Translations under genes and position numbers: made by a program
The notes under the pieces: generated by a model
Databases searched by the model: none
Seen by the model: only the letters and a program-made list of their open reading frames with translations
Told to the model about the DNA's origin: nothing
Shown here: piece after piece, positions 11,974-17,422 of the stretch
Position numbering within the stretch: the first letter of the stretch is position 1
Layout of the letters: the number at the start of each line of letters is the position of its first letter
Origin: Streptomyces sp. ITFR-21
Lineage (GTDB): Bacteria; Actinomycetota; Actinomycetes; Streptomycetales; Streptomycetaceae
Length of the DNA: 64,000 bases
Reading direction: 5' to 3'
Assembly (NCBI RefSeq): GCF_031844685.1
Contig: NZ_CP134605.1
Location: forward strand, 5,678,001-5,742,000

Positions 11974-13959
11974 CTAGCCCGCCGCCTCGAACGCCCGCCC
12001 CGCGGGCGTCTCCGCCGGGCCGCTGCGGAACAGCCCGCTGCTCGGCTCGCCGTCGTCGGCCGGCAGCCCGAACCAGGCGTACCGCTGGAGGTACGACAGT
12101 CCGTCCAGCATCTTCGCGGCCGACGTGACGAACGCGGCCTGCTGCTGGTCGGTCGGGAAGCGGGTGCCGTCGGAGAAGTCGATCAGCGCGAACTCGGTCA
12201 GCCAGATCGGCCTGTGGTACCGGTTGTAGACCGCCTGGAGGTACGACTTGAGCTGGGCCACCGCGTTCGCCGTGGTGAAGTCGCCGCCGTACCAGTGCAG
12301 GGTGATGAAGTCGACCCGGTAGCCCTTGGCCTGCGCGCCGGACATGAAGCGGTCCAGCCAGCCGCCCGCGGTGTCGCCGCCGTACGCCACCGCCGGGCTG
12401 CCCAGCACCTTGCCGGTGTCCATCAGCTTCGGCCACAGCGACAGCGCCTGGTCCACCGTCATGTTCGACTGCTGCGCCATGTCGGGCTCGTTGAAGCCCA
12501 GCAGGTACGGGCCGGCCGCCTTCGCCTGCGCCAGCGAGTTCGCGTCGACGCTGTTCGCGCCCCAGATCATCGGTACGAAGCCGGGGCCGCTGATACCGCT
12601 GTGGGTCGGCGACCAGGTGTAGTACCAGCCCGCGCCGGACCGGGCCAGCGCGGTGTTCACCCCGTTGAAGGACCACACACCGACGCCCTTGCGGACCGAG
12701 CTGACCGGGGGCGCGGGTGGCGGGGCCACCGGGGGTTTCGCCGGGGCGTGGGTGGTGGCCTTCGGGGTGGGCTTCCGGGCGGGCGGCTTCCTCGCCGGTG
12801 CGGGCGACTTCGCGGGCGTCGTCGTCACCGGCGGCGGCGTGGTGGCGGCCCGCAGCGTCGCGGCCGGCCGGGTGGCGGCCGCCTGGTGCGCGGCGGGCGC
12901 CGGGCTGCCGGCCGACAGGTGGACGGCCAGCAGGGCGCCGGCGGCGACCGCCGCGACGGCGCCCATGGCGGCCGCGGGCACCGCGAGCGGGCCGTGCAGC
13001 AACCGCGGCCGGGCCCTTCGCAGGCCGTGGGCCCCTCGTCGCGCACCGCTCCGCACCGGGGGGTGGGAGTGCGGAGCGGTGCGCGGGGCCGCTGGGGGAG
13101 CGGCCTGGGAGGGTGGTACCGGGGAGGCGGGCGAGTGCGCGGGCATCGGGACGAGGCCCGGGTGCGGGGTGGCGAACGGGGTGCCGATCGGCACCGGCAG
13201 CAGCGGCAGACCGCTGAGCAGCCGGTCCACCGGCAGCAGTACCCCGCCGACCCGGCCGCAGGTCCGGCAGTTGCGGACGTGCCGGGCGAACCGCTTGCGC
13301 CACAGCGGGCTGGGCACGCCGTCCCAGCCGCCGGCCAGCTGGTGCAGGTCGGGGCACTCCTCGGCGGCGCCGAGGGCCCGCACCACGGTCCTGGAGGTCT
13401 CCAGCTGCTCCTTCATCCGCTGGACCTTGACCGCCGCGTGCTGCCGGCTCAGGCCGAGCGCGCCGGCCAGCTCCGAGCGGCCGATGTCGCCGGTCTCCTC
13501 CAGCCACCACAGCGCCAGCAGCGTACGGTCGTCCGGGTCGAGCCAGCGGGTGGCCTCGGCGATCTCCCGGCGCTGGTCGGTCAGCCCGAGACGCAGGATC
13601 GTCACCGAGGCGAAGTCGGAGGCCGGGTCGGGTAGCAGCTCGGCGGTGTCCAGCGCGGTCTGCTGGTGCCAGGACGCCTTGCGGGCCTGCTCGCGGTCCC
13701 GGACCTGCCGGACCGCGATCGCCACCAGCCAGGACCGGAACGCGGCCGGGTCGCGCAGCTCGCCGAGCCCGCGCACCACCCGCAGCAGTGTCTCCTGCAC
13801 CACGTCGTCGACGTCGTCGTGGCCGTCCAGCGCACGGCCCACGATGTTGTAGACCAGCGGCAGGCATTCCGCGACGAGCAGATCCAGTGCCCGCTGGTCG
13901 CCCGCCCGTGCCGCGACCACCATGCCGGGGTCGGGCCCGACCCGATCGCCTGCGCGCAT
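11974..13959 (-). CDS. ECF sigma factor fused to a membrane-anchored GH128 glycoside hydrolase domain
   Basis: A 661-residue fusion. Sigma region 2 (about 18-95) has LVYNIVGRALDGHDDVDDVV and DPAAFRSWLVAIAVRQVRDR; region 4 (about 125-190) has LDPDDRTLLALWWLEE and the HTH IGRSELAGALGLSRQHAAVK. A zinc-binding anti-sigma-like HxxxCxxC (H227, C231, C234) follows, then a Pro-rich stretch, one membrane helix (about 326-348), a Thr/Pro/Lys-rich outer linker and an Asl1/GH128-type domain (about 424-658). The latter keeps the expected acid/base GFNEPD (E491) and nucleophile WLTEF (E589). GH128 enzymes cut beta-1,3-glucans. The layout suggests a sigma factor held at the membrane by a wall-exposed sugar sensor. 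No separate anti-sigma gene adjoins it. ATG 13959 is the likely start. The domains are clear; signalling is inferred. Confidence 0.85.
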   Translation of the reverse strand: MRAGDRVGPDPGMVVAARAGDQRALDLLVAECLPLVYNIVGRALDGHDDVDDVVQETLLRVVRGLGELRDPAAFRSWLVAIAVRQVRDREQARKASWHQQTALDTAELLPDPASDFASVTILRLGLTDQRREIAEATRWLDPDDRTLLALWWLEETGDIGRSELAGALGLSRQHAAVKVQRMKEQLETSRTVVRALGAAEECPDLHQLAGGWDGVPSPLWRKRFARHVRNCRTCGRVGGVLLPVDRLLSGLPLLPVPIGTPFATPHPGLVPMPAHSPASPVPPSQAAPPAAPRTAPHSHPPVRSGARRGAHGLRRARPRLLHGPLAVPAAAMGAVAAVAAGALLAVHLSAGSPAPAAHQAAATRPAATLRAATTPPPVTTTPAKSPAPARKPPARKPTPKATTHAPAKPPVAPPPAPPVSSVRKGVGVWSFNGVNTALARSGAGWYYTWSPTHSGISGPGFVPMIWGANSVDANSLAQAKAAGPYLLGFNEPDMAQQSNMTVDQALSLWPKLMDTGKVLGSPAVAYGGDTAGGWLDRFMSGAQAKGYRVDFITLHWYGGDFTTANAVAQLKSYLQAVYNRYHRPIWLTEFALIDFSDGTRFPTDQQQAAFVTSAAKMLDGLSYLQRYAWFGLPADDGEPSSGLFRSGPAETPAGRAFEAAG

Positions 13960-14050
13960 CACAGCCCCATTCTTGTTCGCTTTCTCTGCCCTCGAACAGG
14001 AGACGGTCCCATGACCTGCGGATAACAGAAAAGTCCGGCACCGGAAAAGA

Positions 14051-14102: not shown

Positions 14103-15566
14103 TCAGCTCGCCGGGACGGTGTCCTTGAAGGCGGTGCCGGCCGCGCGCAGCCCGGACACCGCGGACTGGACCTGCGCCGGGGTCAGCACCTGGTCCTTGA
14201 GGAAGTACACGTAGTCCACCCGCTCGTTGTACGAACGCGCGGTGCCGCCGGTCTGGCCCGCCAGGTCGATCAGCCAGTGGTTGAAGTCGATGAACTGGCC
14301 GACCTCCGGCAGGTACGGCTCACCGTGGGTCGCCACGGTTTGGCCGTCGACGGAGTAGGTGATGGCGGTGCCGTCGACGGTGATCTGGAGGTCGTGCCAG
14401 CCGTCCAGGCTCCCGTACTGCTGGCCGTGGGTGTTGACGGCGTTCCACGGGTCCGGGTTGTACGTCTCCCAGGAGGTCTCGTACATGATGTCCTGGGTCT
14501 CGCCCCAGCCGCCGTTGGGCAGGTACTCGAAGTCCTGCTCGCTGTAGTTCGGGTCCATCGGGGCGTTCAGCGGGGTGAAGTTGAAGAAGGTCTGGACGAC
14601 GTGGTCGCCGTCCGGCCCGCCGGTCGGGGTGTCGTTGAACTTCACCCGGGCCGCGTAGGTGCCGTTCTTGAACTTCTGCGCGGTGGTCTGGATCTCGGTC
14701 TCCCGGGTGCCGGCCGCGGTGCCGTCCGTGGTCAGCTTCAGGTTCATCACCTTGTCCGAGCCGTCGGTGACGAAGGTGACGTCCTGCGGCGACCAGGTGG
14801 CGCCGGCCACCCCCGGGCCGCCCTGGCCGGACTTGACGGTCCAGCCGTGCTGCTGGATCGCCGGGTCGGAGCTCGCGGTGTAGCTGAAGTCGTCGAACAG
14901 CGTCGGCCCGGTGGGTACGGTGCCGCCGCCAGGACCGGTCGGCGGGGTCGTCGGCGGCGTGGTGGGGGGTGTGGTGGGCGGCGTCGGGTCGTTGCCGGCC
15001 GGCGCGGTGCCCCAGATCACCGCGCCGTTGTCCTGCACGGTCACCTTCGACCAGTCGGCGTACGCGGTCTGGGCGCCGTTGAAGGAGTAGTCGTCGGACT
15101 GGGTGAGGGTCTGCCAGTCGGCGCGGTAGAACCGCAGCTGCATGTCGCCGGTGTTCTGCCCCGGCGCCAGCGAGCCGGCGCCCGCGGTGAAGCCGATCTC
15201 CAGGTAGCGGTCCGCGGTCGCGGTGGGGTTGGCGAGCGTGCCGAACGTGCCGGTGACGTTGGCGCAGCCCCTGACCGCCCAGGAGCAGGCGAAGCGGTAG
15301 GTGATCGACGGGCCGTCGGACTTGAAGTAGTACCGCACGGTCACCCGGCTGAGCGGCACCGAGGTGCTGCCGGTGTCGGTGAGCTCCAGCCACGGCTCCG
15401 TCTGGTCGGCGGTGGCCCCGGAGGCGCTCGTACGGTACTGGGCGGTGAGCGAGTCCTGCGCGGCGGACGCGGGCAGCGCGGTGAGCGCGGCGCAGGCGAG
15501 ACCGGCGGCCGTGCACACCGCTACGGCGGTACGGACCCTGGCGGACACCCGGAACTTTCCTGACAC
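14103..15566 (-). CDS. Secreted CBM3-GH16 endoglucanase/carrageenase-type hydrolase
   Basis: A 487-residue secreted enzyme. The signal peptide (1-36: basic start, VAVCTAAGLACAALTALP, ASA-A cleavage) leads into a CBM3-like cellulose-binding module (about 38-187, LTAQYRTSASGATADQTEPW). A PTTPPTTPPTTPP linker (about 194-210) is followed by a GH16 fold (about 223-445) with the catalytic ExDxE motif as EQDFE (343-347; E343 nucleophile, E347 acid/base). GH16 enzymes hydrolyse beta-1,3/1,4-glucans or other plant and algal polymers; the substrate cannot be fixed from sequence. GTG 15566 follows AAAGGG and starts 26 bases after the GH20 stop, so the two form an operon. A strong terminator follows. Confidence 0.88.
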   Translation of the reverse strand: MSGKFRVSARVRTAVAVCTAAGLACAALTALPASAAQDSLTAQYRTSASGATADQTEPWLELTDTGSTSVPLSRVTVRYYFKSDGPSITYRFACSWAVRGCANVTGTFGTLANPTATADRYLEIGFTAGAGSLAPGQNTGDMQLRFYRADWQTLTQSDDYSFNGAQTAYADWSKVTVQDNGAVIWGTAPAGNDPTPPTTPPTTPPTTPPTGPGGGTVPTGPTLFDDFSYTASSDPAIQQHGWTVKSGQGGPGVAGATWSPQDVTFVTDGSDKVMNLKLTTDGTAAGTRETEIQTTAQKFKNGTYAARVKFNDTPTGGPDGDHVVQTFFNFTPLNAPMDPNYSEQDFEYLPNGGWGETQDIMYETSWETYNPDPWNAVNTHGQQYGSLDGWHDLQITVDGTAITYSVDGQTVATHGEPYLPEVGQFIDFNHWLIDLAGQTGGTARSYNERVDYVYFLKDQVLTPAQVQSAVSGLRAAGTAFKDTVPAS

Positions 15567-15592
15567 GGTGATCCCTTTCGACAGTGGGGGTT

Positions 15593-17173
15593 TCACGGGG
15601 ACTTCAGTGAAAGCTGGGACGGGGGAAGGGGGCCGGGGCCCGGGAGCCCGGCGGCCCGGTGGCCGACGCCCAGTGCCACGAGGCGGGCCTCGTGGCGTGC
15701 CAGCGCCGGAAGGAAGTCGGCCGCCCAGTCGCTCGCCGGGTTCCACGCCCGGTCGGCGAGCGCGCACAGCCTGGGGAAGGCCAGGTACTCGATGTCCGCC
15801 GGGGTGCGGACGAACTCGCTCCACAGCTGCGCCTGCGTGCCGAGCACTTGGGCCGCCGCGGCCGGCTCCCAGGACGCGGGCGCGGGCTCCCCGCCGTGCA
15901 CGGTCCGCAGGTCGACCACCGCCCCGGCCTGGCCGAGCGGTTCGCCCGGGGCGTCGGACTGCGGGTAGTCCAGGTACGTGGAGCGGTAGGGCGCCATGAC
16001 CACCTGGTGGCCCCGGCGCGCGGCGGACAGGCCGTGCTCGGTGTCCCGCCACGGCATCACGGCGAACTCCGGCGGCAGCGCGCCGGAGTCCTCCGCCCAG
16101 CACAGCGGGGTGCGCCCGGCGTCCAGCAGGAAGCGGCCGATCCGGCCGAGGAACCAGCCGTGCAGCTCCTTCGGCGCGATCCCCAGCCCGGCCGCCCGGG
16201 ACCGGGCCCGCGCGCTGGACTCCCACTCGGTGACCGGGCACTCGTCCCCGCCGACGTGCACGTACCGCGAGGGGAAGACGTCCAGCACCTCGCCGAGCAC
16301 GGTCCGGCAGAAGTCCAGCACCTCGTCGTGGACGCCGAGGACGTTCTCGCTCACCCCCCACTCGGTCCACACCTCCAGCCGCCGTCCGGGGACGTTGCCC
16401 AGCTCCGGGTACGCCGCCAGCGCGGCCCGCGCGTGCCCCGGCATCTCGATCTCCGGGACGACGGTGACCCCGCGCTCGGCCGCGTAGGCGACCAGCGAGC
16501 GCAGTTCCGCGGCGGTGTACGCGCCGGCGTGCGGCTCGTCGTCGAACCGGCCGCTGCCGGCGCGGCCCAGCATCGACCGGGCCCGTACCCCGCCGACCTC
16601 GGTGAGCCGCGGATACGCCGCCACCGGCATCCGCCACCCCTGGTCGTCGGTGAGGTGCAGATGCAGCACGTTCAGCTTGTGCAGCGCCAGCAGGTCCACG
16701 AACCGGCGCAGGAACGACACCGGCTGGAAGCGCCGGGCGACGTCCAGCAGCACGCCCCGCCAGCCGAACCGCGGCACGTCGGTGATCCGCACGCAGGGCA
16801 CCCGCCACGGCACCCCGGCCGCCGGCCGCGCCGACAGCGCCTCGGGGGGCAGGAGCTGGCGGATGGTCTGCACCCCGCGCAGCAGCCCCGCCGGCCGGGC
16901 GGCCCGCAGCAGCAGCCCGTCCGGCCGGACGGTCAGCTCGTATCCCTCGGCGCCGAGTCCGCCGGGCCCCGGGCCGTCGCCGCACGGGTCGACGGCCAGC
17001 ACCACCTCGCCGGCCGGTGCCGGCCGCAGCGGCAGCCCGGTGGCCGGCGCCAGCAGCGTACGCAGCAGCCGGGCCGCGGCCGAGGCGCTGCCCTCGGCCC
17101 GTACGGCGGTGTGTTCGTCGAAGGTGAACCAGCCGGGCGTCCGGGCGAGTCGGGTGGGGCGCGGAATGATCAC
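15593..17173 (-). CDS. GH20 beta-N-acetylhexosaminidase
   Basis: A 526-residue enzyme releasing terminal N-acetylglucosamine from chitobiose-type substrates. The small N-terminal GH20b domain (about 1-130) precedes the barrel (about 133-490), which shows FGWRGVLLDVARRF, NVLHLHLTDDQGWRMP, VPEIEMPGHARAALAAYPEL and the catalytic Asp-Glu pair in HVGGDECP (D310, E311) used for substrate-assisted catalysis. It has no clear signal peptide, so it probably acts on imported chito-oligosaccharides, or is exported another way. GTG 17173 has GGAG nine bases upstream. It is the first gene of the operon with GH16, divergent from a DasR-like regulator, with a dre-like operator in the shared region. Confidence 0.9.
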   Translation of the reverse strand: MIIPRPTRLARTPGWFTFDEHTAVRAEGSASAAARLLRTLLAPATGLPLRPAPAGEVVLAVDPCGDGPGPGGLGAEGYELTVRPDGLLLRAARPAGLLRGVQTIRQLLPPEALSARPAAGVPWRVPCVRITDVPRFGWRGVLLDVARRFQPVSFLRRFVDLLALHKLNVLHLHLTDDQGWRMPVAAYPRLTEVGGVRARSMLGRAGSGRFDDEPHAGAYTAAELRSLVAYAAERGVTVVPEIEMPGHARAALAAYPELGNVPGRRLEVWTEWGVSENVLGVHDEVLDFCRTVLGEVLDVFPSRYVHVGGDECPVTEWESSARARSRAAGLGIAPKELHGWFLGRIGRFLLDAGRTPLCWAEDSGALPPEFAVMPWRDTEHGLSAARRGHQVVMAPYRSTYLDYPQSDAPGEPLGQAGAVVDLRTVHGGEPAPASWEPAAAAQVLGTQAQLWSEFVRTPADIEYLAFPRLCALADRAWNPASDWAADFLPALARHEARLVALGVGHRAAGLPGPGPLPPSQLSLKSP

Positions 17174-17422
17174 GGCGGTGGTCTCCAGGAGGCCGGGGAG
17201 CGGCGGGCGGGGGAGGGGACGGACGGGGGGCGCGGGTCCTGGGTGGTCGGCCTTCGACGGCACGGGCGGTCGTCGCGGAGGCGACCCGGTTCTGCGGCAG
17301 CGGGTGGACCGCCGGTACCGGCGGCGTGAACGGTGCCGGCGGCGCCGCCGTGGCGCCCCGGCCGGTGCCGACGGCGGTGCCGCACGAGGACGGCCGGGCC
17401 GGTGGAACTTACCACTTCGCTA

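Follow-up and report, generated by a model that had tools for sequence, protein, structure and literature searches.

The window, by which we mean the whole 64-kb stretch of Streptomyces sp. ITFR-21 DNA that was analysed, encodes a 661-aa protein combining in one chain an ECF sigma factor, a segment of the zinc anti-sigma type, a membrane helix, a linker and a GH128 domain (Table 1). The ORF starts with the ATG at 13959 and contains no internal stops. Although its frame stays open upstream as far as 14073, this ATG is the likely start, because the predicted promoter sits between the two positions.

Table 1. Features of the sigma-GH128 gene and its upstream neighbours (residue numbers refer to the 661-aa protein)
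Feature	Coordinates in the window	Strand	Evidence
ECF sigma / zinc anti-sigma segment / membrane helix / linker / GH128 CDS, 661 aa	11974..13959 (incl. stop codon)	minus	ORF, Pfam, NCBIfam
Sigma regions 2 and 4, residues 24-187	13399..13890	minus	TIGR02937, PF04542
Zinc anti-sigma type motif C202-x24-H227-x3-C231-x2-C234	13258..13356	minus	conservation 86/86
Membrane helix, residues 330-348	12916..12972	minus	Kyte-Doolittle mean 2.01
Pro/Thr/Ala/Lys linker, residues 349-423	12691..12915	minus	sequence; pLDDT mostly <50
GH128 subgroup I domain, residues 424-660; Glu491 codon 12487-12489, Glu589 codon 12193-12195	11980..12690	minus	
Predicted promoter TTTCTGTTATC-N15-CGTCTCCT, 35.9 bits, 38 bp to ATG	13998..14031	minus	weight matrix
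CBM_3 plus C-terminal domain gene, without motif, outside regulon	14106..15596	minus	Pfam, motif scan
GH20 hexosaminidase-type gene, without motif, outside regulon	15596..17263	minus	Pfam, motif scan

The sigma part matches the NCBIfam profile TIGR02937 (sigma70-ECF) with 63.2 bits, above the curated cut-off of 42.9, over a span that covers regions 2 and 4, which qualifies it as an ECF sigma factor. Pfam reports Sigma70_r2 (PF04542) at residues 28-89 (E-value 2.6e-12); its region 4 models gave no match, and only helix-turn-helix models below their cut-offs were found at residues 140-185. Fold comparison of the sigma part gave weak matches to the SigmaE-RseA (1or7) and AlgU-MucA (8z6g) structures. 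Zinc anti-sigma (ZAS) domains are defined by an HxxxCxxC motif with a further Cys or His ligand upstream. The segment that follows the sigma part exhibits exactly this arrangement, and all four ligands are present in 86/86 complete family members examined; no Pfam zinc-finger model matched in the 661-aa protein. A hydrophobicity of 1.6 on the Kyte-Doolittle scale is reached by the predicted helix in 77/86 complete members. The AlphaFold model (mean pLDDT 75.7, pTM 0.47) is mostly confident at both globular ends and of low confidence at ~250-420, membrane helix included. The first-pass annotation, made from the sequence alone, had described sigma regions 2 and 4, the HxxxCxxC motif, one membrane helix with a Pro/Thr linker and a GH128-like domain with both catalytic Glu residues, and each of these parts was confirmed.

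The outer domain belongs to GH128 subgroup I. Pfam identifies Glyco_hydro_cc (PF11790) at residues 439-655 (E-value 2e-48), and the closest PDB relatives by sequence (E-value 3.6e-82) are 6uaq and its mutants, i.e. the subgroup I enzyme AmGH128_I, which shares about 58% identity with the outer domain and is also its best match by predicted fold (TM-score 0.94-0.95 over the target). In the alignment, Glu491 and Glu589 fall on the Glu residues at AmGH128_I chain positions 96 and 193; the numbering differs by a constant 6, and these therefore correspond to the mutated residues of the PDB entries titled E102A and E199A/Q. Both positions are Glu in 51/51 fused homologues, in which the Asn preceding the first catalytic Glu and His555 are invariant as well. 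Judging by these residues, we regard the domain as an intact-looking, putatively active beta-1,3-glucanase.

A scan of genome contigs confirmed at least 446 relatives of the sigma part, not all of which necessarily carry outer domains. Of these 446, the 80 most similar to the window protein were kept, which biases the share of GH128 upwards, and ten more usable sigma loci came from plasmid records (33 with a match, 12 fetched). This gave 91 loci, window included, of which 86 encode complete proteins; the window's own copy (L001), a broken sigma gene (L012) and a locus without a sigma gene (L013) are excluded from all locus counts, and the contig-cut loci L037, L039, L044, L057 and L058 from the counts of complete proteins. 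The genes in the loci were called by a codon-usage script, so their start positions are approximate. A search of viral contigs found no relatives. The broken gene (L012:3001-3714), from a Streptomyces plasmid, is of the same family, with the likeness ending after about residue 188.

Among the 86 complete members, 51 carry GH128, 24 CAP and four AbfB as the outer domain (CAP identity was checked by Pfam in three members and AbfB in one); five more have outer domains unmatched by the local profiles, one (L091) has another long domain, with no Pfam match beyond the sigma part, and one (L089) an apparent frameshift. The five (L065, L071, L074, L085 and L060) share ~200 C-terminal residues (VMPxWTxLxGxLFHVASGG...); L074, the sole one of them scanned by Pfam, gave no match for its outer domain. 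This shared region is probably a further sensor domain.

The claim that sigma factor and hydrolase form one polypeptide was offered together with its own refutation, namely homologues that always occur as two genes. Such a pattern was not seen: wherever both parts adjoin on an uncut contig, they form one ORF, and the same fusion as in the window recurs in 50 further loci from Streptomycetaceae, Streptosporangiaceae, Micromonosporaceae and three further families of actinobacteria. These homologues refute the idea that errors of assembly or annotation created the fused ORF out of two genes, which we regard as practically untenable. On a tree of the sigma part made by a quick method, the GH128 label needs three changes versus 26.7 in shuffles, and the fusion thus looks old and stable; the same tree is compatible with a single origin of the fusion. 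On this tree the nearest named relatives are from Actinacidiphila.

Upstream of the sigma genes we identified the consensus TTTCTGTTATC-N15/16-CGTCTCC. The weight matrix was trained on the sigma-gene promoters alone, thaumatin promoters not being among them. The site before the sigma-GH128 gene is the sole one of 10 bits or more within the window, and we predict it to be the target of the sigma factor encoded there. The motif precedes the sigma gene in 81/91 loci (GH128 48/51, CAP 22/24, other or cut 11/12, AbfB 0/4), with a clear gap in score, the 81 positive loci having at least 18.6 bits and the other ten at most -2.6. Three of the sigma genes that lack a motif of their own follow another gene with a site upstream: a thaumatin gene with a strong site in L077, a CAP gene with a strong site in L088 and a CAP gene with a weak site (16.6 bits) in L004. 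In L080 and L090, where sigma-AbfB genes lack their own motif, it is found on the divergent strand, directed towards AbfB genes.

The two genes next to the sigma gene had been taken in the first-pass annotation for GH16 and GH20 members of a polysaccharide regulon. For the supposed GH16 protein, Pfam gives a CBM_3 match plus a 3-keto-disaccharide hydrolase model below threshold. Such a regulon is rejected, because neither gene is preceded by the motif and both are situated upstream of the promoter of the sigma gene; moreover, homologues of the pair precede the sigma gene in 6/91 loci only (Actinacidiphila and Streptomyces sp. DvalAA-14). A shared -35/-10 motif, proposed as a check of that idea, does exist before the sigma gene itself and before stand-alone GH128 genes in two relatives, but not before the adjacent genes. 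The wider proposal of a one-protein sensor is accordingly supported in part, as a membrane sensor with an intact-looking outer glucanase, but without the GH16/GH20 regulon.

Within the 1.07 Mb of loci we found 24 sites of at least 20 bits other than those of the sigma genes themselves, versus 0.33 expected at 18 bits or more (averaged over 3 Markov sequences). They are directed towards genes for thaumatin-like (8), CAP (5), DUF305 (3), GH128 (2), AbfB (2; one with a small ORF between the site and the AbfB gene) and F5/8C-DUF1996 (2) proteins and two unclear targets; Pfam was run on 15 of these targets, and the AbfB targets also show a GH43 match below cut-off. A thaumatin-like gene, or a gene that mirrors the outer domain of the sigma factor, lies behind 17 of the 24. 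Stand-alone neighbours of the sigma factor's own outer-domain type occur in 2/51 GH128, 6/24 CAP and 2/4 AbfB loci, while a neighbour of another of these three types was found in 0/158 chances; the corresponding Fisher p-values (GH128 0.54, CAP 0.0005, AbfB 0.002) are too small, because the loci are related and their counts overstate independence, and the enrichment for GH128 alone is not significant. The 12 "other or cut" loci, which stand outside these counts, contain no CAP, AbfB or GH128 neighbour. All 6/6 CAP neighbours are preceded by the motif (with 31 bits or more in five cases and 16.6 in the sixth), as are 2/2 GH128 neighbours; in L026 the site lies ~350 bp ahead of the start chosen by the script. 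Thaumatin-like neighbours were found in 10/51 GH128 loci versus 0/28 CAP or AbfB loci. The Pfam scan of neighbour proteins covered sets of 100 and 102, the 94 listed CAP-locus neighbours lying outside it. DUF305 proteins are encoded divergently to the sigma gene in Herbidospora (L052, L054 and L055; motif ~28 bits) and were also seen among the GH128-locus neighbours scanned by Pfam (7/100 and 5/102 proteins).

The 7.36-Mb source genome was covered by strict and relaxed pattern searches whose matches were then scored, rather than by a full-matrix scan. Besides the sigma gene's own site, the searches returned sites of 31.3 bits (C1:5785764-5785797) and 23.8 bits (C1:991328-991361), each within ~50 bp of the start of a thaumatin protein. 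The genome contains exactly two PF00314 genes, and these are the two with the motif; both encoded proteins combine the thaumatin domain with a Pro/Ala-rich linker and a hydrophobic helix at the N-terminus. Three of the four strongest sites found by pattern search thus belong to the sigma gene and the two thaumatin genes. The fourth (L098/L094, 21.1 bits) is inside coding sequence and was rejected as a target, as was L103 (19.9 bits), inside an ABC-transporter-like ORF; the pair L099/L100 has 19.2 bits (L099 scored).

PF00314 was found in 10/20 sigma-GH128 genomes versus 0/10 sigma-CAP/other genomes, all hand-picked, with five of the 20 already known to have a thaumatin neighbour. These genomes contain 17 strong thaumatin loci. 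In 11 of them the motif scores at least 23.6 bits (four of these had turned up in the earlier locus or genome scans); five are divergent to the sigma gene and have at best weak sites of their own (15.3, 15.3, at most 10.8, 8.0 and 1.1 bits), and one is the second gene of a tandem pair. Before four weaker thaumatin matches in the same genomes the motif is absent. In nine genomes, a strict pattern search returned 17 sites, in 8/9 genomes, versus one for the reversed control. Judged by score and position, 14 of them belong to five sigma genes from these loci (L106, L108, L114, L117 and L119), a paralogous sigma gene (L111), two thaumatin genes (L107 and L109), two CAP genes in the sigma-CAP genome (L116 and L122, one lying far from the sigma gene), a reprolysin-like protein (L110), alginate-lyase-family proteins (L120, 34.8 bits, and L118, 26.9 bits) and a protein with a PATR repeat below threshold (L121, 33.4 bits), with Pfam as the source of the identities of L110, L118 and L120-L122. 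L118, L120 and L121 belong to two Streptomyces genomes and are perhaps targets of paralogues such as L111. The remaining three of the 17 sites, the low-scoring L112, L113 and L115 (16.2, 10.9 and 5.7 bits), were rejected as targets.

Plant thaumatin-like proteins of the PR-5 type bind or cut beta-1,3-glucan. A joint role of thaumatin and GH128 domains is supported by a plasmid protein (L013:2146-3717) in which Pfam finds both in one chain, without a sigma part. The sequence evidence supports an autoregulated membrane receptor, in which the outer GH128 domain and the anchored thaumatin-like targets may act on the same polymer. More generally, the whole family of these actinobacterial one-protein sigma receptors could follow a mirror rule, by which each receptor displays on its outside either a copy or a partner of the surface protein under its control. 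Its GH128 branch would recognise beta-1,3-glucan walls and equip the cell with anchored thaumatin-like proteins, in parallel with the PR-5 response of plants to fungi; we would give this rule, in its full form, perhaps slightly less than an even chance.

The protein is most likely a one-protein counterpart of clostridial SigI/RsgI that would sense beta-1,3-glucan and drive surface thaumatin-like proteins. We consider the following account probable as a whole. At rest, the zinc segment, as a built-in anti-sigma domain, would restrain the sigma part at the membrane in an inactive state, with the GH128 domain exposed outside the cell on the wall-spanning linker. Upon contact with beta-1,3-glucan of fungal or similar walls, the anti-sigma and membrane part would be lost or cleaved and the sigma part freed. 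We infer such proteolytic release from the models for ECF52 and ECF53 (in the passages compared from PMC8999054 and PMC5826349) and from the part of PMC12203970 that deals with SigI/RsgI. The freed sigma factor would then read the motif, amplify its own gene and, in the source genome, switch on the two membrane-anchored thaumatin-like proteins, putative surface proteins with a target of that kind, and in two relatives the stand-alone GH128 protein. Several observations count against this account: 10/20 of the sigma-GH128 genomes tested have no thaumatin gene, the five thaumatin genes divergent to the sigma gene have at best weak sites, three motif sites precede DUF305 genes and two unclear targets, the sigma-AbfB genes have the motif before themselves in 0/4 cases, and one of the strongest source-genome sites is the one within coding sequence.

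How the outer domain would act can be read in more than one way. It could mainly be a working surface glucanase that is cut off and shed, the sigma part only reporting its loss; the catalytic Glu pair in all 51 fused homologues, the match in fold to the endo-beta-1,3-glucanase AmGH128_I and the fact that a search of the source genome with the GH128 domain returned only the sigma protein's own match would fit this, but relatives bear CAP or the non-catalytic AbfB on the same chassis and two encode GH128 as a protein of its own behind this motif, so that we find it unlikely. Somewhat doubtful, yet worth serious consideration, is a lectin-like sensor that only binds, with catalysis irrelevant to signalling. 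The GH10 domain of RsgI6 is a precedent, since it binds polysaccharide with very low activity according to the passages compared from PMC4711584, for which reason catalysis by the GH128 sensor should not be assumed, and the CAP and AbfB siblings suggest that recognition is the common need; on the other hand, the invariance of both catalytic Glu residues, the preceding Asn and His555 is more than binding seems to require.

The motif by itself does not prove its reader either. Most of the family shares it, and cross-talk between paralogues could therefore occur. It might even be read by another sigma factor or regulator, the sigma-GH128 gene being merely one target among others with the same motif. 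This appears improbable to us, given that the motif precedes sigma genes with GH128, CAP and unmatched outer domains alike and that the target types follow the outer domain. We accordingly prefer the tethered, self-regulating receptor described above. The sequence now points to a promoter, to a small group of targets within one genome and to a probable ligand for a sigma factor of the ECF52/53 type; if beta-1,3-glucan is the signal, actinobacteria would have a direct sensor of fungal walls; and if the mirror rule is true, the outer domain would reveal both signal and regulon for many receptors of this type.

The architecture is known in outline: the part of PMC10766802 compared here mentions predicted glycosyl hydrolase catalytic domains, without experimental validation, in some ECF52 and ECF53 proteins. 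These groups, as defined in the compared part of PMC8999054, have a C-terminal extension with a zinc motif, one or two membrane helices and an outer domain, all present in the window protein, which resembles them in uniting ECF sigma factor, zinc finger, membrane helix, proline-rich stretch and outer carbohydrate-related domain in one chain; proteolytic release has been proposed for them as well (passages of PMC8999054 and PMC5826349). SCO4117 of Streptomyces coelicolor, described in the passages of PMC5826349 as the first ECF52 member studied, differs in carrying a carbohydrate-binding module where the window protein has GH128, in controlling development and in its putative motif, CSGYN-17-SRHA, unlike the one reported here. 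The ECF52/ECF53 passages compared do not mention GH128, CAP or thaumatin targets, and, among the papers listed on GH128, glycosyl hydrolases, glucanase or thaumatin with sigma factors, titles and opening lines of abstracts contain nothing on this system beyond the cited reviews; the promoter, the target set and the mirror rule, not seen in these passages and listings, appear to be new. AmGH128_I is alike in fold, sequence and catalytic Glu residues, whereas the domain described here serves a sigma factor as its outer part.

The closest functional parallel is found in Clostridium thermocellum, in which, according to the passages of PMC4711584, outer CBM3, CBM42, PA14 and GH10 domains of the autoregulated SigI/RsgI systems sense polysaccharide, RsgI6-GH10 and Xyn10D share 57% identity, and the promoters of both sigI6 and xyn10D are activated by SigI6 in Bacillus subtilis; steps carried out by RseP and ClpP are described in the part of PMC12203970 compared. 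SigI lacks region 4 (PMC4711584, same passages), in contrast to the TIGR02937 span of the window protein. SigI and RsgI are two proteins, while here the sensor is fused to the sigma factor. To our knowledge, the inhibitor segment of RsgI is not a zinc anti-sigma domain. The sigma-GH128 protein is thus not a member of the SigI/RsgI family, having the span of region 4 and a fused sensor, but it would work in much the same way.
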